A stretch of DNA of 64,000 nucleotides. It comes from Sulfurovum sp. GTDB lineage: Bacteria; Campylobacterota; Campylobacteria; Campylobacterales; Sulfurovaceae. This document shows, piece after piece, positions 9,774-44,488 of the stretch. The notes beneath the pieces are model-generated. The model worked only from the letters and a program-made list of their open reading frames with translations. It was not told the origin of the DNA and made no database searches. The position numbers and the translations under genes are program-made. The stretch spans positions 1 to 64,000 of the forward strand of contig JALWLD010000112.1 in the NCBI GenBank assembly GCA_027081115.1, written 5' to 3'. Positions within the stretch are counted from its first letter, which is position 1; each line of letters begins with the position of its first letter.

Positions 9774-12215
9774 TTATGCTGGTTTGACGGCAAGATTTAC
9801 AAGCTTGTTTGGTACAACAATCTCTTTCATGATCTCCATACCTTCAAGCCATTTTGCACCTGCCTCTTTTGCTGTGAGTAATATCTCTTCTTGTAAAGCA
9901 GAAGGACTCACTTCGATTTGGGTACGTTTTTTGCCACCAATCATGACTACATACATCACTGAGTCTTGTACAAATACCTCTTCTTTTACTTCAAGTATAT
10001 CACCAAGATTTTTTCTATCAAACAAAATTTCAGATAACTCAGTTGTTACATGCGGAATGATTGGCTCAAGCAAATTAAGCATAATATACATTCCCTCTGT
10101 CCAGACCTCAGCACTCTCTTGTTTATCTAAGGCATTCATAGCTTCCATACAGGCAGCGATGAGTGTATTAAACGCAAATGTTTTTTCATAGACATCTGAA
10201 GATTTCTGCAATGCTTCATACACTTTTACACGTGCAAGCTTAGATGCTTTACTTAAACTGCTCTGATCAATCTCTGGCAATGCACTACCGGTCACTTTCT
10301 CTCTTCTGTCATAAAGTTTTTTAATGAACCTGAAGGCACCCTCAACTGCAGAGTCATTCCACTCTAACTCTTTTGCAGGTGGTGCAGCAAAAAGGGTAAA
10401 AAGCCTTGCCGTATCCGCACCATACTTTTCTACAAGTGCATCCGGATCTACCGTATTTCCTTTAGATTTTGACATTTTTGCACCATCCATAAGTACCATT
10501 CCCTGTGTAAGAAGATTCTCAAACGGTTCAGTAATATCATGGTAGCAAAGGTCACGTAACACTTTTGTAAAGAAACGTGCATACAAGAGGTGTAAAATAG
10601 CATGTTCTATCCCCCCTATATATTGGTCCACTCCTAACCAATAGTTAGCATCTTCTTTATCGATACCCGTCTCATTCCATTTCTTCGGATTGGTCGCATA
10701 GCGGAATTGATACCAACTTGACTGTACAAAAGTATCTAAGGTATCTGTTTCACGCAGTGCATCTTTTCCACATTTTGGACAGGCACAATTCTTCCATGTT
10801 GGATGATTTTCAAGTGGATTTCCTTCTCCTGTGATCTCAACATCTTCAGGCAGTGCAATAGGTAAATTTTCCACTTTTTCAGGCACAAGCCCACAAGATT
10901 CACAATGCACAAAAGGAATGGGTGCACCCCAGTAACGTTGGCGTGAAATACCCCAGTTTCGCAACTTATAATTCGTTGTACCTTTACCCACTCCCTCTTC
11001 TTCAAAGAAATTAATAATCGCCACTTTGGCTTCATTACTGTCAAGACAAGAGAAACGATCAGAGTCTATAAGATCTCCCGTTCCGGTATAAGGAAGTTCC
11101 TCTCCTCCTTCGATCACACGTTTGATCGGAAAATTGTATTGTGTAGCAAATTCAAAGTCCCTCTCATCATGTGCAGGTACAGCCATGACTGCACCACCAC
11201 CATAAGAAGCTAAAACAAAGTTGGCTGTCCATACCGGTATCTCTTCCCCTGTAAGCGGGTGGATCACAGTAATACCAAGATCATAGCCCTCTTTACCCTC
11301 TTTGGCTCTTTCTATCTCTGTCATATTGGTGATTTTTTCAATCTTCTCAATCACATTTGTATCTAAAAGACTGTTTTTTATCAAATACTTAGTAATCGGA
11401 TGTTCTGCAGCTAAAGCAGAATAAGTCACACCATAAATAGTATCTGGACGTGTAGTAAAGACCGTATATTTGTCAAAATTTCCACTCAGCTTCTCTTTAC
11501 TTGACGGACTCAATTCAAAATCAAATTCAAGTCCCTGTGATTTGCCTATCCAGTTACTCTGCATAGTAATGACCTGATTAGGCCATTTACCTTCCAACTC
11601 TGTTAAATCACCGAGTAATTCATCTGCGTACTTAATAATATCCAGATAATAGCCCGGCATCTCTTTGAGCTGTACTTCATTGTCACAACGCCAACAACAT
11701 CCCTCTTCTACCTGCTCATTGGCAAGAACGGTATGACAATCTTCACACCAGTTTACAGTTGTTGATTCACGATAAAGCAGTTTCTCTTCAAACATCTTAA
11801 TGATAAATTCCTGCTCCCACTTGGTATAGAGTTCATCACAGGTAGCAAATTCACGTGTTTTTGAAAAAGAGAGCCCTAAAGTATTAAGCTCTTTTCTCAT
11901 ATAGTCAATATTCGAGTAAGTCCACTCTTTAGGATGTCTCCCGTGCTTAATTGCTGCATTCTCCGCAGGCATACCAAAAGCATCCCAACCAATAGGGTGT
12001 AACACATTAAAATCCTGTTTTCTATAGTAACGCGCAAAAGCATCACCAATCGCATAATTTCTAACATGCCCCATATGCAAACGCCCACTAGGGAAAGGAA
12101 ACATACTTAAGATATATTTTTTTTTCTGTTCAAGAGAATCAGAAGGTTCAAATGCCTTTTCTTCTTCCCATTTTTTCTGCCATTTGGCTTCAATCTCATT
12201 TGGATTGTAACTCAT
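9774..12215 (-). CDS. leuS: Leucyl-tRNA synthetase
   Basis: 813 residues, class I synthetase. HIGH-type motif in [17 protein letters not shown] near 43-58, CP1 editing domain with [17 protein letters not shown] in [14 protein letters not shown], and two Cys-pair zinc ribbons (CEDCHTV with CCWRC, and CESCGLV with CACPKCG). Charges tRNA-Leu. Preceded by a GATATAATCC promoter (12253-12258) and followed 27 bases later by the lptE-like gene, so it leads the leuS-lptE-folC-mfd-regulator operon. Confidence 0.97.
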
Positions 12216-13297: not shown

Positions 13298-15193
13298 TTG
13301 TCATTAGCCTTAGCAAGAAAATACCGCCCAGCCACTTTTGATGACCTCATAGGTCAAGAATTGGTTTCACAAACTTTATCTTTGGCACTTGATGGGAACA
13401 GACTCTCTCATGCCTATCTTTTCTCCGGACTAAGAGGTTCAGGGAAAACTTCCACAGCACGTATCTTTGCCAAAGCACTCCTTTGTGAAAAGGGAACTAC
13501 TTCACACCCTTGTGGTACTTGTCCTCATTGTATAATGTCAGCTGAGAACAGACATATGGATATCATTGAGATGGATGCAGCCTCCAACCGTGGTATTGAT
13601 GATATTAAAGACCTCATAGAACATACCAAATACAAACCTTCTTCTGCACGTTACAAAATTTTTATTATCGATGAAGTCCATATGCTGACCCCTCAAGCCT
13701 TCAATGCCTTACTAAAAACCCTGGAAGAACCGCCAGATTTTGTAAAGTTTATCTTGGCAACTACAGACCCTCTAAAACTTCCTGCAACGATTCTCTCCCG
13801 TACTCAACACTTCAGATTTAAAAAGATCCCCCAAAATCTTGTCCTAAAACACTTAGAACACATTTTAAATTTGGAAAATGTAAGTTATGAGAAGGAAGCA
13901 CTTGATATTATTGCCAGGACAGGAGCAGGTTCACTAAGAGATTCACTAACGCTCCTTGATCAAGCTATTGTCTACTCTAAAAATCATGTAGATATAGCTA
14001 CTGTTACCGGTATGTTGGGAATTATCGAACCTTCATTGCTTGAAGCACTACTTAATGATATCGTCCATAAAGACAAAAGTAAAATCCTAACCTTTATTAA
14101 ACTCGCTTCTGATTATGAAGCTGAAATGATCTTAGATGAGCTTACCCTCTATCTTAAAGAGTTGCTTTTAACACAAAGCAGTACTTTTTCTCCTATGACC
14201 ATTGAACGTTTTTTCCGTGTCATCGCAGATGCCAAATCACTTTTAGCTTTGGGAAGTGACGGAGAATTTGTATTGACTCTCTCTTTATTCAAAATGATGG
14301 AAGCACTCGAGATCAAAGATATCGATATGATGATCCGTTCTTTGGAAAAAGAATTGCAAGGTGTAGAAATCACAGAGATCATGGTTACAACACCAGACCA
14401 GGACAACAAAGCACCGAATGAAGTGATTACTATTACCGAAGAAGAGATAGTAGCAACCCTACCCAAAGTAAACATTCCTCGTTCAGAAGGTAGCCTTCAA
14501 GAAGAAGTAGATATTCAACAGGATCAGCCACAAAATCTTGAAACAATCGAGACCCAAGAAGAGCATTCTGAAAAGACTGAACCACAAAAAGATCAAAAAC
14601 CAGAAACCCCTCTGAACACTGAACACTCAACACTCAACACTAATAAATTCAATGAACTTATTTCAAAAATCTATGACAGAAGTTTTGACTTGGGAGAATG
14701 TTTCAAACACAACATTGAGTTTGAAAGTTTTGAAAACCATAAACTAACCTGGGGTTCAACAGCTGAAGGAGAAGAGAAGAAACAGCTTGTTACACATTGG
14801 GGTGTGATCAATATGTTTGTCAAGGAGATCTTTGGATTTGAAACCAAGATCGTAAATATCGCTAAAAAAAAAGTAATTAATAATGCTGTAGCCCCGGAAG
14901 ATGCTTCCATAAATACAAAAAACATTTTACACAGCAAAGAAAGTGATACCCCTCAACCAAATAATGAAAACTTAATATCTGAATCTACCACAGTCAACCC
15001 TCCACATAACGATGCAGACTCCACATCTATGATAGAAGATGTGGAGATGAAAAGTTCCTGTATTGCCCCAGATGCCGGAGAAACCGAAGCAGCAAAAGAA
15101 AAAGACCCTTCTACACTTTTAGAAGAACCAATGATCAAAGAGGCCATTGCACTTTTTAATCCAAAAAAAGTACGTATTAAGAAAAATGTGTAG
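13298..15193 (+). CDS. dnaX: DNA polymerase III subunits gamma/tau
   Basis: 631 residues. TTG start with AGAGGAG seven bases upstream; the sequence MSLALARKYRP is the normal family start. AAA+ clamp-loader ATPase: Walker A in GLRGSGKTSTAR, four-Cys zinc site (CEKG, then CGTCPHC), Walker B DEVHML, LEEPP, and sensor 1 in ATTDPLKLPATILSRTQ. Domain III ends near 365; a long acidic Glu/Gln-rich linker (about 370-450) leads to a tau-like C-terminal part. The linker contains a 7-base tandem repeat and the C-terminal part an A9 run, either of which could give truncated products (see findings). Confidence 0.95.
   Translation: MSLALARKYRPATFDDLIGQELVSQTLSLALDGNRLSHAYLFSGLRGSGKTSTARIFAKALLCEKGTTSHPCGTCPHCIMSAENRHMDIIEMDAASNRGIDDIKDLIEHTKYKPSSARYKIFIIDEVHMLTPQAFNALLKTLEEPPDFVKFILATTDPLKLPATILSRTQHFRFKKIPQNLVLKHLEHILNLENVSYEKEALDIIARTGAGSLRDSLTLLDQAIVYSKNHVDIATVTGMLGIIEPSLLEALLNDIVHKDKSKILTFIKLASDYEAEMILDELTLYLKELLLTQSSTFSPMTIERFFRVIADAKSLLALGSDGEFVLTLSLFKMMEALEIKDIDMMIRSLEKELQGVEITEIMVTTPDQDNKAPNEVITITEEEIVATLPKVNIPRSEGSLQEEVDIQQDQPQNLETIETQEEHSEKTEPQKDQKPETPLNTEHSTLNTNKFNELISKIYDRSFDLGECFKHNIEFESFENHKLTWGSTAEGEEKKQLVTHWGVINMFVKEIFGFETKIVNIAKKKVINNAVAPEDASINTKNILHSKESDTPQPNNENLISESTTVNPPHNDADSTSMIEDVEMKSSCIAPDAGETEAAKEKDPSTLLEEPMIKEAIALFNPKKVRIKKNV
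14613..14640 (+). repeat. dnaX: Four-copy heptamer tandem repeat inside dnaX
   Basis: Two copies of TGAACAC followed by two copies of TCAACAC, then ACT. They encode part of NTEHSTLNTNK in the tau linker. As seven is not a multiple of three, copy number change shifts the frame; a gain of one unit would put TAATAA in frame right after the repeat. Confidence 0.85.
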
Positions 15194-15216
15194 GGTGGTG
15201 TAATTGCCATTACCTC

Positions 15217-16029
15217 CTACAATTCCATCCATGCCTTTGTCACGATTTTAGGCTGATCATCATAAATCTTTATTTTCTCTGCTCCAATACAGTATCCTTC
15301 ATTATCCAATTCAAAGACTATCATCTGTAAGAGAGATTTACAGTCGTTTGGCACATCAAAATGGCCACCCAACCCTGTTAAGAAACGTTTTATAGGTACT
15401 TCTGCTTCCATACCTATAACACCGTCTCTACAACCTGTAAGACCAACATCTGTCACATAACAACATCCCTCCACAACTTGCAGATCATCCGTTGCTACAT
15501 GGGTATGGGTACCTAAAATGGCCGAGACCTCTGCTTTTAAAAGATGTAAAAGCACATGTTTCTCTGAGGTAGCTTCAGCATGCATATCAATAACAATATG
15601 TCTATAGCCCTCTTCTTTCAATGTCGATACTTGCTCTTTGATCATCGTAAAAGGATTATCTACCATAGGCATGGTATAGTGTCCCATAAGATTAATAACG
15701 GCAAGATCATGCCCCAATAAGGTTGTTTTAAACAGCCCATTTCCCGGTGTCTCTTTAGGATAATTGATAGGACGGATCAGGGGGTAGGTATCAAAGAGTT
15801 GAAGTATCTCTTTTTTGTCAAAGCTGTGGTTCCCTCCGGTCATCATATCAATGCCATATCCCAACAGTTCCACACAGTTTTTTTCAGTCAGACCAAAACC
15901 ATGTGAAGCATTTTCATAATTGGCAATAGTAAAATCAATAAAATGTTCCTGCTGAAGACGCTTAAGATGTCTCTTAAGCATGAGACGGCCAGGTTTACCT
16001 ACAATATCGCCTATAAACCCAATCTTCAC
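15217..16029 (-). CDS. YmdB-family metallophosphoesterase
   Basis: 270 residues from a GTG start at 16029, four bases after the fabH stop, giving MKIGFIGDIVGKPGR, the usual family start; a longer in-frame reading would run into fabH. Metal-binding motifs GDIVG, NYENASHGFGLT, GGNHSFDK and GTHTHV are present, as in the B. subtilis YmdB 2',3'-cyclic nucleotide phosphodiesterase family (TIGR00282). In B. subtilis the protein influences motility and biofilm genes; the role here is not known. Co-transcribed with fabH. Confidence 0.88.
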   Translation of the reverse strand: MKIGFIGDIVGKPGRLMLKRHLKRLQQEHFIDFTIANYENASHGFGLTEKNCVELLGYGIDMMTGGNHSFDKKEILQLFDTYPLIRPINYPKETPGNGLFKTTLLGHDLAVINLMGHYTMPMVDNPFTMIKEQVSTLKEEGYRHIVIDMHAEATSEKHVLLHLLKAEVSAILGTHTHVATDDLQVVEGCCYVTDVGLTGCRDGVIGMEAEVPIKRFLTGLGGHFDVPNDCKSLLQMIVFELDNEGYCIGAEKIKIYDDQPKIVTKAWMEL

Positions 16030-36967: not shown

Positions 36968-37479
36968 ATCTCATGCTCTTTTCTGTGTTTCCACTTGTAT
37001 CTTTTGTCTTCTTTCACTTTTGAAAAATACAATGCCCCAGGCTTTCTCCAGGGGTCAATGATGATACCATGCATCACCGGTTCTCCTTTGGCAGAGACCA
37101 CAAGAACATTGTGCTCAAAAAAGTATTTTCCCTGATCTGCTACTAAAAGATGAAATGTAAAATGTGCATACTCTTGTTTTTTAAAATAGAGATAAAGCGC
37201 ATTACTCCACTCATAACACAACCCCTGCTCTTTTAATCCAACATTGATGAGGAAATTGTTCATATGGGGTTCAAAAACCGGATCAAATTTTTTTCTGAGC
37301 AGTTTAGTTTGGCCATAGATCTCAATAGCCAGTGACTGAGCCTCTTCATGAGAGATATTAGAAGACAGGCTTTGAAGAGTACATGTGAGTGATTGCCTGT
37401 TTGTCGAGGCATCCAATGTATCTCTACTACATGCCAATAGAAAAAATATAATACCTATGCTAAGTAAAAACTTGTACAT
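36964..37479 (-). CDS. Lipoprotein with a possible Cys-His-Asp triad
   Basis: 171 residues. Lipobox FLLAC, Cys17. Later, GLCYEWSNALY (Cys88), FFEHNVLVVSA (His123) and IIIDPWRKPG (Asp142) occur in the order and spacing of papain-like/transglutaminase-type cysteine hydrolases, with the bulky residues after each one typical of that fold. No family recognised; activity is inference. Overlaps the rhomboid gene by 20 bases, so co-translated with it. Confidence 0.7.
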   Translation of the reverse strand: MYKFLLSIGIIFFLLACSRDTLDASTNRQSLTCTLQSLSSNISHEEAQSLAIEIYGQTKLLRKKFDPVFEPHMNNFLINVGLKEQGLCYEWSNALYLYFKKQEYAHFTFHLLVADQGKYFFEHNVLVVSAKGEPVMHGIIIDPWRKPGALYFSKVKEDKRYKWKHRKEHEI

Positions 37480-38140
37480 AGTAAGAAGGAAGATACTGTA
37501 TTACAGCAAGAACTAAAAAAGACATAGCAAGAGAAAATCCCAAAAACCATTTTGGATTTTTTGAAATAACAAAACCACCAATGAGCCCTATGACAAGTCC
37601 GCCAATATGTGCAGAGACATCTATGGAAGGGATAGAAAGCCCCAATACAAGGTTGAGCCCTAACACTATTCCAAAATCTTTCATAAAAGCTTTGGAGTGC
37701 TCTTCTATTTTGTTACGATGTGCCAGAAAAAATCCTGCTAAAGCACCAAAAATACCAAAGATAGCTCCTGATGCACCAACTCCTACAGAGTTTGGATGCA
37801 TATAGAGTGATGCCAAACCACCCAGCAAACCAGAGAAAAGATAGATCGATATATACGCTTTTCTCTCAAAGTAAAGCTCTACACCACGTCCTATGAGGTA
37901 AAGAGAAAACATATTCATAAGTATATGTGTCATACCTCCATGCAAGAACATGGCAGTTAAGAGTCTCCACCACTCACCCTTAAGTACAACTAGAGGTCCC
38001 CATAGTGCACCCATGTTAACAAGGGTTTCCATATCCATATCGATGATATTGCCAGAGAAAAGTGCCGAAAAAATATAAGCTATGACATTAACGACTATAA
38101 TGCCATAGGTTAAAGGATAGGCTTTAAATGTTTGTAGCAT
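37460..38140 (-). CDS. Rhomboid-family intramembrane serine protease
   Basis: 226 residues with about seven hydrophobic segments. Catalytic Ser in GVGASGAIFGIFGA, catalytic His in DVSAHIGGLVIGL, and MFLHGGMTHILMNMFSLY with the conserved His/Asn of the L1/TM2 region. Cleaves membrane proteins; the substrate is unknown. Starts one base before the end of the upstream hypothetical gene's stop region. Confidence 0.92.
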   Translation of the reverse strand: MLQTFKAYPLTYGIIVVNVIAYIFSALFSGNIIDMDMETLVNMGALWGPLVVLKGEWWRLLTAMFLHGGMTHILMNMFSLYLIGRGVELYFERKAYISIYLFSGLLGGLASLYMHPNSVGVGASGAIFGIFGALAGFFLAHRNKIEEHSKAFMKDFGIVLGLNLVLGLSIPSIDVSAHIGGLVIGLIGGFVISKNPKWFLGFSLAMSFLVLAVIQYLPSYYVQVFT

Positions 38141-39344: not shown

Positions 39345-39620
39345 TTATACTTCAACCTTAAGCAAACCATTTTCTTTCAACTTTTCAACAAAAGTAATAA
39401 GGTCTTTTTTCAAAACTTCATCTTCAACATCATACTGCATCAATAAAACTTTAAAAACTTCATCTAAGGTCTCATTCTCCTGCATTGCATTCCAAATATC
39501 TGTACCAACAACATCAAGTCCAAAATAATTTTCAGAATTCATATCTAGTAAGACCATCTCACCATCTACTTCCTGTGCAAATACCGTCTCTGCAAAGGTT
39601 ACTTTACTATTCATATCCAT
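39345..39620 (-). CDS. PqqD-like peptide chaperone / RiPP recognition protein
   Basis: 91 residues. EMVLLDMNSENYFGLDVVGT, WNAMQE and a helical LITFVEKLKENGLL end follow PqqD-family proteins, whose winged-helix RRE domain binds leader peptides. Starts at an ATG sharing a base with the stop of the DsbC-like gene. Paired in this cluster with an HprK-related kinase and a small Tat-leader peptide, an association known from HPr-rel-A type systems and lasso-peptide loci. No lasso cyclase or leader peptidase is in the window. Confidence 0.85.
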   Translation of the reverse strand: MDMNSKVTFAETVFAQEVDGEMVLLDMNSENYFGLDVVGTDIWNAMQENETLDEVFKVLLMQYDVEDEVLKKDLITFVEKLKENGLLKVEV

Positions 39621-40366
39621 TATTTTTGTAGACCTTTTAAAACTTGATCCTGGGAGATAGGGTTAAAATTAGCATCATACAACGCCGGTGTCCCTCGCAT
39701 ATTCACCTCTCTTGCTGCTGCTTCAGATCTTTTTTTATAAACTTGTACTTCAGGAGAGTGTACAAATGGTTTTTTCACATCTTTAATGAGCTCTGTATAC
39801 TTTGTTGAATCTTTAAGCATCACATCTTCAAAACGTATTTTCTTTTCCGTATCATCTTTACCCATCATGATCCACTCTATCATAGCTGGAGATTTTTTAT
39901 GAAAAGAGAGAGGGAAAAGTATGACATGTACTGTATAGTCATTTAATCTTCCTTTTGCTTCCTCTTCAAATTTACTACAGTACGGACATTCCGGATCTGT
40001 AATCAAATATATCTCCTCCTTTCCATTCCCATACGTAAATGCCACACCATCTTTAATAATTTTTGGATCTTTTGGAAACTCAATGGCATGCCCCTCTTTA
40101 TCATATGCCGAACCAATGTAAAGCTCCGATGTCTTTTTATCTAAAAAAGCTGTAATATTTTGTGAACCCTGTGGCGATCTTGCTTCAAGTTTCAATATAT
40201 AACTCTCAGGCTTTTCAATAGCACCTTTTATAGTAAGTACCGGATCCTGTAGAACTTTATTCATTTTTTTAAGATCCAGAAATTTAGCCGAGTCTACCAT
40301 GTTTTCTTTAGCAAAAAGTGGGTTAAACAGTATAACTACGGTAAGCATAAATAGTTGGGTTTTCAT
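39620..40366 (-). CDS. DsbC/DsbG-like periplasmic thiol-disulfide oxidoreductase
   Basis: 248 residues. Signal peptide (1-19), N-terminal dimerisation-like region, then a thioredoxin fold with active site CPYC in ITDPECPYCSKFEEE and cis-Pro in MRGTPALYD. Probably reshuffles or reduces disulfides in envelope proteins such as the Cys-rich LamG protein of the same cluster. Has its own probable promoter and is coupled to the PqqD-like gene. Confidence 0.88.
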   Translation of the reverse strand: MKTQLFMLTVVILFNPLFAKENMVDSAKFLDLKKMNKVLQDPVLTIKGAIEKPESYILKLEARSPQGSQNITAFLDKKTSELYIGSAYDKEGHAIEFPKDPKIIKDGVAFTYGNGKEEIYLITDPECPYCSKFEEEAKGRLNDYTVHVILFPLSFHKKSPAMIEWIMMGKDDTEKKIRFEDVMLKDSTKYTELIKDVKKPFVHSPEVQVYKKRSEAAAREVNMRGTPALYDANFNPISQDQVLKGLQK

Positions 40367-40398
40367 GAGGATTTCCTTAAAGTATTATATATTTTCAG

Positions 40399-40404
40399 AG
40401 TATA
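40399..40404 (-). promoter_or_regulatory. Candidate -10 of the DsbC-PqqD transcript
   Basis: TATACT about 35 bases before the DsbC-like ATG in the 140-base gap after the kinase gene; AAGGAAA is the ribosome site. Confidence 0.4.
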
Positions 40405-40488
40405 ACATAAAATTATTTTTTCACTGTTTTGCATATCGAGATTTTTGCTGCATTTAAACGCACCCTACAAAACTCAAATTTATATTGA

Positions 40489-40507
40489 ACAAAAAGTCTT
40501 AAGACTT
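40489..40507 (-). terminator. Weak terminator after the HprK-related gene
   Basis: AAGTCTTAAGACTT followed by TTTTTG on the minus strand, starting at the stop codon. The stem is short (five pairs with a TTAA loop), so readthrough is likely. Confidence 0.35.
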
Positions 40508-41391
40508 CATATTTTACAGTTATGTGCTACGATTGCATCATACACTTCAGGCAATCTTTCCAAATCCCAGGGAATAGTTATGTTGTATACTCTAACCGAT
40601 TGTGCCATCTCTGTAAAAAATACAAATCTCTCTTTTTTCATAAAATCAAAATCAATAAAACTGCTGTAGTGAAAGGCTTTGAACTTCTCTATGCCTTTGA
40701 GTTCTACTATGCTGACCTCTGCATCTGTTTCCACTTTTTCAAGTCTATAGACAGCATGTATAGGTTTGATTTCAGTCGAAAAGTTTTCAACGTAGTAACC
40801 CAAAGTTTCAAGTTCACGATAAGGTCTGTGAAAAGGGTAGGAAGGGACTGCATAATAGCCATTATCTCTTTTTTCTACACCCAAGGAGTCATCTGAAAGA
40901 AGTGTATGCCCATGCTGTAGAAAGTAGTCCGTCAATGTAGATTTCCCACCAAAAGAAAAAGCTGAAAAAAAAACAGCTTTACCTTCTATCTCAACAGATC
41001 CCACATGCAAAATACGATAATTTCTTTCCAGCTCAAGTACCAGTGGGAAAAAGGTATGCAGACACCAGAATCGTAAGCGTTCCGGGGCATACTGTTTACT
41101 TTTATAGTAAAGAATTTCCCTTTTTTGAACATTCCAGGCAAGAGTTAGGACATTTACAATCTCAATTCCCCATGAAAAATCTTTACCTGCATTATTAAAA
41201 TCTCTTACACTTAAATAGTAAACTTCTTGTCCCGACATAGGTATTAAATTACTTTTTCTTGTAAGCCTAAGATCCTCAATGCATGTTGAATCTTCAATAA
41301 CTTTAATTGTTTCCAATGAATCATTAGTCGGTCTTTGCATATTGAGTTGAGCTTCATTGATGAAAAGAATATTTTTATTAAAAACGATCAT
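40507..41391 (-). CDS. HprK-related kinase
   Basis: 294 residues. P-loop FFSAFSFGGKSTL (about 142-153) and a Walker-B-like LLSDDSLGVE (165-173), the two HPr-kinase C-terminal-domain signatures; no HPr substrate or N-terminal HprK domain is present. Such kinases occur next to PqqD-like proteins and small peptides, and in some lasso-peptide clusters related kinases phosphorylate a serine of the precursor. Here the only small peptide candidate is the next gene upstream. AAGGTC precedes the ATG. Confidence 0.8.
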   Translation of the reverse strand: MIVFNKNILFINEAQLNMQRPTNDSLETIKVIEDSTCIEDLRLTRKSNLIPMSGQEVYYLSVRDFNNAGKDFSWGIEIVNVLTLAWNVQKREILYYKSKQYAPERLRFWCLHTFFPLVLELERNYRILHVGSVEIEGKAVFFSAFSFGGKSTLTDYFLQHGHTLLSDDSLGVEKRDNGYYAVPSYPFHRPYRELETLGYYVENFSTEIKPIHAVYRLEKVETDAEVSIVELKGIEKFKAFHYSSFIDFDFMKKERFVFFTEMAQSVRVYNITIPWDLERLPEVYDAIVAHNCKI

Positions 41392-41423
41392 AAATGACCT
41401 TGAGAAAAGAAATTATACTGTAA

Positions 41424-41633
41424 TTACCATACAGGAGGTCCAGGAACAGAGTTCCGTGCTTGCACATCCGTAGGCTTGACAAGTTGTCCCAATACCATCA
41501 AAACCGGTGCAGCATATACAGATTTCTTTAAAAAATGACGTCTTGAATATTCTTCCTGATCTTTTTCGGCAATAGACAAAGCACTTTCTTCTTCTAACTT
41601 TTTAGGCGCATTCATATTTTGTGCTTTCTTCAT
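41424..41633 (-). CDS. Small Tat-leader peptide, candidate precursor
   Basis: 69 residues, no Cys. Basic/acidic N-terminus, twin-arginine SRRHFLKK (Arg31-32), hydrophobic SVYAAPVLMVLGQL, then VQA|RN as a likely signal-peptidase site after Ala59. That would leave RNSVPGPPVW, a ten-residue product with one serine and a C-terminal Trp. GGGAG lies eight bases before the ATG, which shares a base with the upstream lipoprotein stop (TAATG). The following kinase starts 32 bases downstream. I know of similar small 'RR.FLKK...YVAPV' proteins beside PqqD/HprK-like genes but cannot verify this. Confidence 0.75.
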   Translation of the reverse strand: MKKAQNMNAPKKLEEESALSIAEKDQEEYSRRHFLKKSVYAAPVLMVLGQLVKPTDVQARNSVPGPPVW

Positions 41634-42340
41634 TATTTACTCCCAGATGAAGTAAGCATACTATCGGGTAAAACTACCCATTCAAATGTCTTTTCAGTTT
41701 TACCGTTCATGTTAAAATAATATACTTTAGCCTGATTTCCAGATAAAACATTTATAGTATTACCGGTATCAACATCGATCAGTTGCATATTTTTTATAAT
41801 CGGATTAGACATCGATCTTGTCTCATCATATCGTTGTCTGTCCTCTGTATCGATATAAGGTTCAAGTACGTATATCCCTCTCCAGGTCAATGCCATCTGT
41901 GCATTGACATTATCGGTTCTTACCGTAAATCGCCATCTGTACTCACTATTTTCAGAGAACTGCTGAAAATTTGTTTTATAATCTCCGGCATCCACACCTA
42001 CAGGGTCTTGAAAAACAATATCAATATAATCACTACCCATAGGAGGAAGAGTAATTAATGTATGTTTTACAGTAGCTTGTTCTTCATCAAGCACTCCTAG
42101 TTGAGCATTTGAAGATATAATCTGCGTTGAAGTATCTTCTGCTTGCAGACGAATATACCAGTTAATTGCTTTTTCTTCCATAATACTTCTTTTTGATGGT
42201 ACTATATCCTCGTTATCTGTATTATCAGCAGTGTTAACACTATTGAAGATACTGGAATTTACTACATCATTTGAAATATCACAACCCACTAAGATAATCA
42301 TTAGTATCAAAAGGTAAAAAAACTTCTTTATTTTTAACAT
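41633..42340 (-). CDS. Lipoprotein of unknown function
   Basis: 235 residues. Lipobox ILVGC (Cys20), then a Ser/Asn/Asp-rich linker (about 21-50), then a beta-rich domain that includes WRFTVRTDNVNAQMALTWRG and a sequence with 'WVVLPDSM' near the end. No family recognised. Starts three bases after the LamG gene stop and overlaps the Tat-peptide gene by one base. Confidence 0.75.
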   Translation of the reverse strand: MLKIKKFFYLLILMIILVGCDISNDVVNSSIFNSVNTADNTDNEDIVPSKRSIMEEKAINWYIRLQAEDTSTQIISSNAQLGVLDEEQATVKHTLITLPPMGSDYIDIVFQDPVGVDAGDYKTNFQQFSENSEYRWRFTVRTDNVNAQMALTWRGIYVLEPYIDTEDRQRYDETRSMSNPIIKNMQLIDVDTGNTINVLSGNQAKVYYFNMNGKTEKTFEWVVLPDSMLTSSGSK

Positions 42341-42343
42341 TTT

Positions 42344-44488
42344 TTACTCCTCTGGTATAAGCAGCTTCACTACTTTCCCTTTTGTAGGACCATGTAGTTC
42401 CATCCAAAAACCTTTATATGGTATGAGTTGACATCCTCCTGGGGTAACGTCATTACATGTTGTGTACCCCTTACCATCTGCACTGCTACTGGAAGGGTTG
42501 TACTGCCATATCTGATTCTTTATATAGCCTGCCGTTTCAGCTGAACTCGGTGTATAGGACACATCATCTATCAAAATACGACAATCTGCCCAATTAACCG
42601 GCTTCTTACCTACAGCACCTGTCAAATTATATCTGTACGGACCAGTACCAAGAAGATCATCTACACCATCCTCTAATGCAACAGGCCGTATATCTATCTC
42701 AACACAGCTAACTGCAGGACAATCTGGACTTGGTGAGTTATAATTAACTGACTCTATATCATTGACATCCCATGTCGCACTTTGTAAACTTCGTAACCAG
42801 TACCCTTTTCCAAACTCCAGTGACGTATTTAAGTCAAGATATTCGTACCAACTGCTATTATTGGTATCACTGTAACCTCTCCCGTATACACGCCAGTCGG
42901 TACCATAATTCGTAGTAATATCGTCCCCAATTAGATCTGCCACTGTAAATGTTCCCGTTCTCAGATCTGCAGGGATACCAATAAGTTCCCATACACCGGC
43001 ATTTACAATTGCATTACAAGTATTACAAGTTCGTGTTGTACCATCATAATTATTACCTGCCGATTCATTTGTATAAATGTCTTGTACTTCTGTAGCAGTT
43101 AAAGCATAATTCCAAAACTTTACTTCATCAATACTCCCTAGCCACTTATCATCATATTGATCACTTAAGTCATTTCCAATAAAGAGTGCTTCAGCAACTG
43201 CTGTTATTGCCGATGAGTAAGCTACATTCTGAATTTCTACACCATTTTTATAAATTCTAAGATTCGTACCATCATACACACCGACAATATGATTCCAGGT
43301 ATTCATATCTAAAGCTGCACTCACACTATTATCTCTACCATTAACAAAAAACTTGATACTTGTATTATCAGCAGCATTATTTGCTAGTCCAAAACCATCA
43401 TCCCAATTTTCTGTACTTGTTTTCATAACTGCTGCTACCCAATCAACAACAGATGTTCCGGTAACAGGAAAAAGCCATGCAGATATTGTAAGTTCTGTAG
43501 ATAATTCATCTAAAACTGTCGTATCCTCTACCCGTACTCTATCTCCAACAGTTCCAAAAGTACCGTAGTTACATATAGGTGGATTCAAAGTATTGGTAGT
43601 CACAGTAGCTGCACCTTCAGATGTTGCATCTTTCCCAAACGGTGAACTATCCTGCACATCTCCAACAATGGCACTATTGTTGAACCAAAAACACTCATCC
43701 ATACGGTACTCAACCCTTGCATTATCTGGGTATATTTTGATAGAAAACTGCTGCCCTACTGATTCTCCATCCTTATCTGAAGCATATAGCGTGACTATTT
43801 GAGACTCTTGTACTGTAGGTGTCCCAGATATTATACCTGTCGCTGTATCGAATGAAAGACCGGAGGGAAGAGTCCCATCTAATCGATAGCCAGTTATCGG
43901 ATCGCCATCAGTCTCCATAACATATATTGATGTATCAAACAAAAAAGCGTCCCCTATTGTTCCAATCTGATTTGGAACAGTATTGACATCAGGGGGTAAA
44001 TCAGGATCTGCATTGTAAATAGTCAGTGTTGCATAGTTATAGGTACCGGTGTCTCCAGCAGCATCATCACAAACGGTCAAAGTCCATATACCGGCTGAAT
44101 CTTCCCCGCCAAATGTATTCAAGGGCTGTTCAGGCTGTCTTGAAACAACTGAATTCTGATTAGCATTGTCATCTACAATGGATGTAGCTGCCGAATCATC
44201 AAATATTGTATATAGATTATTTTTATTTCCTCCATTATCACTGGTCAGATCAACCGCTGTTCCTAATGGTGATGTCAAACTAATATCAAGATCAGCACGC
44301 CAACTATGGTCTATATTCACTTCTATGATCACATCCGTAACTATTGAAGAGGTTGGGATATCAAATGTCCTGTCAAAGCAGGTATTGTCATTTACTGGAG
44401 TTGATACAGAATCTGTAACAGAAATACTTCCAGCATTTAAAAATATGGGAAGCAATACTAATATCAAAAATAATTTTATGTTTTTCAT
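42344..44488 (-). CDS. Surface/secreted protein with P-domain, Ig-like and LamG domains
   Basis: 714 residues. Signal peptide 1-19. P/Homo-B domain (about 20-155; IDHSWRADLDISLTSPLGT, GIWTLTVCDDAAGDTG), a cadherin-like He_PIG module (about 160-255; DGTLPSGLSFDTATGIISGTP), a LamG/concanavalin-like module (about 260-475; WNHIVGVYDGTNLRIYKNGV, GSIDEVKFWNYAL), then a C-terminal domain with WRVYGRGYSD, GKGYWLRSL and several Cys pairs. It should be a sugar- or protein-binding envelope protein. Lead gene of the peptide cassette; AT-rich start region with a candidate -10 further upstream. Confidence 0.8.
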   Translation of the reverse strand: MKNIKLFLILVLLPIFLNAGSISVTDSVSTPVNDNTCFDRTFDIPTSSIVTDVIIEVNIDHSWRADLDISLTSPLGTAVDLTSDNGGNKNNLYTIFDDSAATSIVDDNANQNSVVSRQPEQPLNTFGGEDSAGIWTLTVCDDAAGDTGTYNYATLTIYNADPDLPPDVNTVPNQIGTIGDAFLFDTSIYVMETDGDPITGYRLDGTLPSGLSFDTATGIISGTPTVQESQIVTLYASDKDGESVGQQFSIKIYPDNARVEYRMDECFWFNNSAIVGDVQDSSPFGKDATSEGAATVTTNTLNPPICNYGTFGTVGDRVRVEDTTVLDELSTELTISAWLFPVTGTSVVDWVAAVMKTSTENWDDGFGLANNAADNTSIKFFVNGRDNSVSAALDMNTWNHIVGVYDGTNLRIYKNGVEIQNVAYSSAITAVAEALFIGNDLSDQYDDKWLGSIDEVKFWNYALTATEVQDIYTNESAGNNYDGTTRTCNTCNAIVNAGVWELIGIPADLRTGTFTVADLIGDDITTNYGTDWRVYGRGYSDTNNSSWYEYLDLNTSLEFGKGYWLRSLQSATWDVNDIESVNYNSPSPDCPAVSCVEIDIRPVALEDGVDDLLGTGPYRYNLTGAVGKKPVNWADCRILIDDVSYTPSSAETAGYIKNQIWQYNPSSSSADGKGYTTCNDVTPGGCQLIPYKGFWMELHGPTKGKVVKLLIPEE

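Follow-up and report, generated by a model that had tools for sequence, protein, structure and literature searches.

What is a 69-residue peptide with a twin-arginine translocation (Tat) signal doing in a row of genes that also encodes a kinase and a PqqD-family recognition protein of lasso-peptide type? The question is posed by a six-gene cassette on the minus strand, at 39345-44488 of the window, by which is meant the whole 64,000-nucleotide stretch analysed, from contig JALWLD010000112.1 of a Sulfurovum-like genome (G000; 2.4 Mb in 133 contigs) whose nearest counterpart loci lie in Sulfurovum metagenome-assembled genomes (MAGs). An earlier reading of the letters alone, the sequence-only reading, had proposed a distinct Tat-exported peptide system that is not an ordinary lasso locus. 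Our answer, held at a probability of roughly 0.58, is that the cassette encodes a lasso-derived, linear and probably phosphorylated system for a ribosomally synthesised and post-translationally modified peptide (RiPP) using the Tat route, with a single leader stretch that appears to be both the export signal and the docking handle for a RiPP recognition element (RRE) and its modifying partner. The six tightly spaced genes named in that reading are all borne out as open reading frames, separated by short gaps or overlapping, and the features are as follows.

42344-44488, minus: LamG protein, 714 aa, with a Sec-type signal, P-domain, He_PIG immunoglobulin-like (Ig) and LamG domains (Pfam), and a conserved 235-aa C-terminal domain
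41633-42340, minus: lipoprotein, 235 aa, lipobox LVGC, predicted beta-sandwich
41424-41633, minus: precursor peptide with Tat signal, 69 aa
41526-41546, minus: twin-arginine motif SRRHFLK, residues 30-36, read from the sequence and near-invariant in 36 of 37 homologues
41469-41516, minus: putative RRE-binding motif YAAPVLMVLGQLVKPT, residues 40-55, in the same frame as lasso leaders
41427-41456, minus: predicted mature tail RNSVPGPPVW after the VQA cleavage site, from the AxA-like sites in most homologues
40507-41391, minus: HprK-like peptide kinase, 294 aa; P-loop AFSFGGKS at 40939-40962, DD pair at 40888-40893
39620-40366, minus: DsbC/DsbG-like protein, an optional member; Pfam Thioredoxin_2 E 9e-8, CPYC motif
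39345-39620, minus: PqqD-family RRE (B1-like), 91 aa; Pfam PqqD E 9e-17

In transcript sense the order is LamG protein, lipoprotein, Tat peptide, kinase, Dsb gene and PqqD, with the two surface proteins at the head of the row, as had been claimed. A gap of 3 nt separates LamG from the lipoprotein gene, which overlaps the peptide gene through TAATG; 32 nt lie between peptide and kinase, 140 nt between kinase and Dsb gene, and the Dsb and PqqD genes share a second TAATG.

Directly after SRRHFLKK, the precursor carries YAAPVLMVLGQLVKPT, a lasso leader motif. The leader pattern of lasso clusters, [Y/W]xxPx[L/V/I/F/A], is present as YAAPVL, and the frame is shared beyond it, with YAAPVL MVLG QLVKP T in the window set beside YAQPKL IVMG SMVKI T in the lasso precursor at locus L031. 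An unsupervised profile comparison aligned this stretch of the Tat peptides on the motif of lasso precursors from the same genomes (E 1.7e-4). Among 37 distinct Tat peptides, motif position 0 is Tyr in 35 and Trp in 2, positions 3 (Pro), 5 (Leu/Ile) and 9 (Gly) are kept throughout, and position 14 is Pro in 36, giving the consensus YxxPxLxxxGxLxKP[T/S]. The motif arises in 0.4% of shuffled tails and is absent from a control set of 12 E. coli Tat signals. The hydrophobic region (h-region) of a Tat signal requires hydrophobicity, not a fixed Tyr, Pro or Gly, and in one related genome, G005, KKRDILKK stands in place of the twin-arginine stretch, which has decayed, with YVAPKLIILGTLTKPT retained. 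Sequence fact and statistics together thus form the basis for a leader that would combine a Tat signal (SRRHFLK) with a lasso-type RRE motif.

The putative partner of this motif is the PqqD protein. Its profile matches the lasso-type B1 RREs TbiB1 (5e-23), PbaB1 and TfuB1, its nearest relatives in the PDB, as well as LppB of the linear polyphosphorylated peptides (LPP), ahead of PQQ proteins. In the family check that the sequence-only reading had proposed, it reached E 2e-17 against NCBIfam lasso_PqqD_Bac, with 63 of the 80 bits required and hence under the cut-off. PqqD-type RREs bind the lasso leader motif YxxP; in LppB, D70 bonds the motif Tyr and F74 divides the pocket (PMC13381572). The counterparts in the window protein, D73 and F77, are invariant in 16 sequences, and the position of LppB N33 is taken by Asp, as in TbiB1. 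The gene is under purifying constraint, with a ratio of non-synonymous to synonymous substitution rates (dN/dS) near 0.1. From homology and the conserved contact residues there is a strong case that PqqD would bind the precursor leader through YxxP.

The kinase reaches only E 0.011 against Pfam Hpr_kinase_C, and its alignment retrieves HPr kinases in the PDB at E 0.002. Judged by the motif list of PMC10368454, the catalytic His, the P-loop [A]x4GKS and the DD pair are conserved in 26/26 aligned kinases, with two P-loop glycines of BsfK substituted across the whole subfamily; dN/dS is 0.07-0.14, indicating strong purifying selection. A tree of 31 kinases sets those with Tat clients apart from those with lasso clients, with two exceptions, one of them the G206 kinase (locus L032), which groups with the Tat kinases. 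BsfK and LppK phosphorylate Ser3 of RRE-bound YxxP precursors (PMC10368454, PMC13381572), and BsfK is accelerated by its RRE (PMC10368454); in LPP the Ser3 modification is a polyphosphorylation (PMC13381572). By analogy with these two enzymes, phosphorylation of the peptide by the HprK-like kinase is probable. A different division of labour would make PqqD a Tat-signal chaperone only, and the kinase a regulator or a modifier of another protein such as the lipoprotein or the LamG protein. The motif does lie inside the Tat h-region, where the redox enzyme maturation proteins (REMPs) bind, and the LamG and lipoprotein genes are constant neighbours; we nevertheless consider this arrangement unlikely, as the same RRE-kinase pair modifies a YxxP precursor in the characterised lasso and LPP systems (PMC10368454, PMC13381572), and the LamG protein and lipoprotein carry Sec and lipoprotein signals with no YxxP leader.

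A route from gene to product can be proposed for the linear phosphopeptide. PqqD, bound to the leader, would present the precursor to the HprK-like kinase for phosphorylation on Ser or Thr, most likely S62; the precursor would then pass to TatABC and be exported, and signal peptidase I would cut after VQA to leave a short Pro/Trp-rich phosphopeptide. Signals and gene order suggest these steps of handover and cleavage, and also a last one, in which the lipoprotein and LamG protein, made from the same transcript, would be the product's partners at the cell surface. By covering the Tat h-region until modification ends, PqqD could serve as a proofreading chaperone in the manner of the REMPs. This stronger proposal, that the signal stays bound by PqqD until phosphorylation of the peptide by HprK is complete and that Tat then delivers the peptide to a dedicated LamG/lipoprotein surface partner, is coupled to the claim that the class arose from lasso clusters and still exchanges precursors with them; taken jointly, they are put at rather less than an even chance.

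Export is predicted from the signal and from the genome: the peptide has an SRRHFLK-type motif, a hydrophobic h-region and an AxA-like VQA site, and the source genome encodes the translocase (TatC, E 1e-69). Several observations weigh against the proposed system. The motif is part of the profile by which the 37 homologues were gathered, and this bears on the conservation counts above. The h-region is charged in two related peptides (G055 and G005), and the G005 peptide has no RR, which means that not every member depends on Tat export. The genes for peptide, kinase and PqqD are spread over more than one contig in G005, G055 and G163. Cleavage after VQA would make the Ser of RNSVPGPPVW (S62) residue 3, as in BsfK and LppK substrates; S62 lies 22 residues from the motif Tyr, compared with distances of 18 (LppA) and 19 (BsfA), and the predicted mature part in L099 has no Ser or Thr. 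S62 is the most likely phosphate acceptor by analogy, with the assignment kept unsure by that longer distance and by the L099 tail. The decayed RR and the charges in G005 and G055 would also suit a peptide that uses another route or stays inside the cell, its RR-like residues being a by-product. This is improbable, given that [S/T]RRxFLKK is near-perfect in 36/37 homologues with AxA-like sites after it in most, and that the cassette has no exporter gene in a genome that encodes TatC.

How close the system stands to lasso biosynthesis is seen in its relatives. At L031, L027 and L032 an ATP-binding cassette (ABC) exporter, a Transglut_core3 protein, an asparagine-synthase-like cyclase and HprK lie within the same locus, and in L102 and L103 the same lasso genes occupy another contig of the genome. 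The L031 Transglut_core3 protein passes the NCBIfam cut-off for the lasso B2 protease, and the canonical lasso precursor of L031, MKKEYAQPKLIVMGSMVKITQGGVSPTSTLDNSNSSFDASSTK, has a leader that matches NCBIfam lasso_cyano (E 7e-6). At L032 a lasso-like precursor ending in PYSSPKIEIIANVRMATKGSTIGGTDSGGQSANVPSDPGGW stands behind the lipoprotein, at the position of the Tat peptide; it has Gly1 and Asp8, and its PSDPxGW tail recurs in several Tat peptides; this common tail is why the product tail seems to matter with or without a ring. The source genome itself, as far as its sequence is available, has no Transglut_core3 B2 protease; there is no lasso-type cyclase at the locus, and the only genome-wide asparagine-synthase match is an ordinary one at 26% identity. 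An ordinary lasso cluster was accordingly ruled out for this genome. In the order sample described below, B2 exceeds the cut-off in only one of the nine genomes with a Tat peptide; in those reached through GTDB loci it is present in 4/8 and absent from 4/8.

A macrocycle, lasso or other, could still be made if an enzyme encoded elsewhere cyclised or modified the peptide. The leader, RRE and kinase are all of lasso type, a ring-competent precursor sits at the same place in L032, and B2 and cyclase genes are found on other contigs in some relatives. Against this stand the lack of Transglut_core3 and of any but an ordinary asparagine synthase in the source genome, and the tail after T55, VQARNSVPGPPVW, which has no Asp or Glu, where a lasso core needs G/A/S/C at position 1 and Asp/Glu at ring positions 7-9; no plausible core in the window peptide provides one, and a cyclised product is thus doubtful. 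The linear product remains preferred. The sequence-only reading was right that cyclase and protease are missing, which is true of the whole source genome as far as its sequence is available, and the absence of B2 and cyclase upholds its view that the locus is not an ordinary lasso locus. One correction to it concerns the ties to lasso biosynthesis: the kinase is lasso-related, as are the RRE and the leader motif, and relatives have entire lasso clusters at or near the locus.

Homologous loci were collected and the six cassette genes mapped on each; the order sample comprised 249 genomes, in which kinase counts refer to strong matches. The HprK-like kinase was found in 14 of these, the Tat peptide in nine, all with the kinase (Fisher 2e-13), and the cassette-type PqqD in 13, again all with the kinase (Fisher 8e-21). 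Within the family alone the association with the kinase persists (Fisher 5e-4 for the Tat peptide, 2e-5 for PqqD). The lipoprotein occurs in nine genomes of the order, eight of them with the kinase, and a fuller search of the family located the Tat peptide in 35/175 genomes. LamG protein, lipoprotein, Tat peptide, kinase and PqqD thus form a recurring set whose order is mostly conserved, usually LamG-lipoprotein-Tat peptide-kinase with PqqD just after or elsewhere; a Thermodesulfobacteriota contig (L026) has the same genes rearranged, and another genome of the same class (L099) has the kinase-Tat peptide pair. The sequence-only reading had named a lack of co-occurrence in related genomes as what would overturn it, and the opposite was found. 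Its distinct Tat-exported system is favoured by this recurrence and by the small RR peptide, which resembles no Tat substrate of any other known kind, with export and modification themselves standing as predictions.

One gene of the six fared differently. The DsbC-like gene is present in L022, L023 and L029 and absent from the cassette in L021, L028, L030 and L034, and the window peptide has no cysteine. The disulfide isomerase that had been counted as a member is an optional passenger, and was rejected as part of the core.

The same distribution bears on whether the locus is simply a lasso cluster decaying without function. In a Sulfurovum MAG (L029:8001-9781) the kinase is split by a frameshift and the cyclase is in fragments, which may reflect a lasso cyclase in decay or an assembly error. 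That broken cyclase and frameshifted kinase speak for decay; yet many species have an intact cassette whose kinase and PqqD genes show dN/dS near 0.1, the Tat-associated kinases form their own subfamily, and the genes are kept in genomes without B2 across genera as well as in the two genomes of the Thermodesulfobacteriota class. Functionless decay is very improbable.

Two further observations concern copy number and composition. Four genomes (G344, G361, G374 and G375) encode two Tat peptides of the family each, and in three of these genomes the pair shares a contig. L104 (G242:C17) stands alone in having a LamG match and the lipoprotein domain while lacking the kinase, PqqD and a true Tat peptide.

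A surface role for the lipoprotein and LamG protein with the peptide is suggested by gene order alone. The AlphaFold2 model of the lipoprotein is a beta-sandwich (mean pLDDT, the predicted local distance difference test, 75; core >90). Comparison with PDB folds gave no clear match, with all Z <5 and glycosidase domains mixed with pilins, and the fold was dropped as a clue to function. The C-terminal 235 aa of the LamG protein (42344-43051, minus) are conserved in 13 homologues, including Thermodesulfobacteriota; the window protein ends GKVVKLLIPEE, and K.[VIL]KLL[IV]P[EQK]E closes at the very last residue in 13/13. This domain has no Pfam family, and its model (pLDDT 66) gave no significant fold match. 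Lipoproteins of L027, L029, L030, L031 and L035, and also L025, bear a C-terminal extension ending FDL[NS][KR]PP that the window lipoprotein lacks. L032 encodes two apparently near-identical lipoprotein copies (10641-11318 and 14741-15418, minus), each behind a large surface protein, which suggests a recent tandem duplication. A small membrane-anchored protein of 127-139 aa stands beside lipoprotein and peptide in L032 (14270-14653, minus) and L033 (6798-7217, plus); it has no family match, and the L032 protein ends DPDNKFGEPPL.

The cassette lies between ribA and rsmG, with rsmG immediately after the PqqD gene, and the arrangement hemB-ribA-[cassette]-rsmG is also kept in relatives. The synonymous divergence (dS) of the Tat gene to its three closest relatives is 0.2-0.4, compared with ~0.7-1.2 for lipoprotein and LamG and >1.4 or saturated for kinase, PqqD and rsmG. 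DNA identity is likewise raised across the LamG and lipoprotein genes. Either an overlapping constraint or a recent exchange of this segment may account for the low value; an RNA element was set aside as its cause, as exchange explains it equally well given the raised identity. A scan for promoters and terminators gave no signal clearly above chance, and the sole Rfam match above gathering score in the window is a c-di-GMP-I-GGC riboswitch aptamer at 1270-1344, minus. Downstream of rsmG and two small genes lies a rhomboid-type intramembrane protease, identified by sequence (37460-38140, minus), which is probably chromosomal background, since the rsmG-to-rhomboid order is the same in L029, L031 and L032.

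Set against known systems, the cassette resembles several and coincides with none. It shares with HPr-rel-A (TIGR04352/TIGR04353) an HprK-related kinase alongside a PqqD-family protein, and was rejected as such in the same family check, the kinase scoring 26.1 bits against a TIGR04352 cut-off of 200 and the window PqqD giving no TIGR04353 match. With the phosphorylated lasso peptides, of Bsf type (PMC10368454) and paeninodin type, it has in common a B1-like RRE, an HprK-like kinase and a YxxPxL leader with Thr 15 residues after Tyr; it differs in having no B2 or cyclase in the genome, no Asp/Glu ring acceptor and a Tat signal in the leader, and the lack of B2, cyclase and ring acceptor is why it is not a lasso cluster. 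The closest parallel is with LPP, described by Popov et al. in 2026 as restricted to Bacillota (PMC13381572): both have a discrete RRE, an HprK-like kinase, a YxxP precursor and no cyclase, both often have lasso clusters nearby, and leader removal by a signal-peptidase-type enzyme, demonstrated for LPP, is predicted here. The present locus belongs to Campylobacterota and adds LamG and lipoprotein partners; a Tat leader replaces the LPP consensus YxxPxVLxHQxIxFETxxS, and the cassette genes include no SpI-like (SipW-type) peptidase, NTP transferase or MsbA-like exporter, which were not sought genome-wide. The cassette would work like LPP yet fails several of its defining features, the leader and the missing peptidase, transferase and exporter among them, and so is not classed with it.

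If the proposed system is correct, it would be a second, Gram-negative branch of linear phospho-RiPPs, and would show a lasso pathway losing its ring chemistry while keeping the handle and the product tail. It would also link RRE docking and Tat export, two pathways not known to meet; a search of the open-access literature found no paper in which Tat signals are joined to lasso peptides or to RREs within one system, subscription literature being outside its scope. RRxFLKKxx[YW]xxPx[LI]xxxG offers a simple motif for finding such peptides. REMPs such as NapD are dedicated signal-binding chaperones of Tat redox enzymes, and Tat substrates with signal-binding chaperones are also described in PMC3316669. 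The cassette resembles these in a small cytoplasmic protein predicted to bind a signal peptide during a maturation step, and differs in that the binder has the PqqD fold and the cargo is a tail of ~10 residues, not a redox enzyme; if the proposal is right, it would give a concrete instance in which Tat quality control by a RiPP recognition element, acting as chaperone, can be put to the test.

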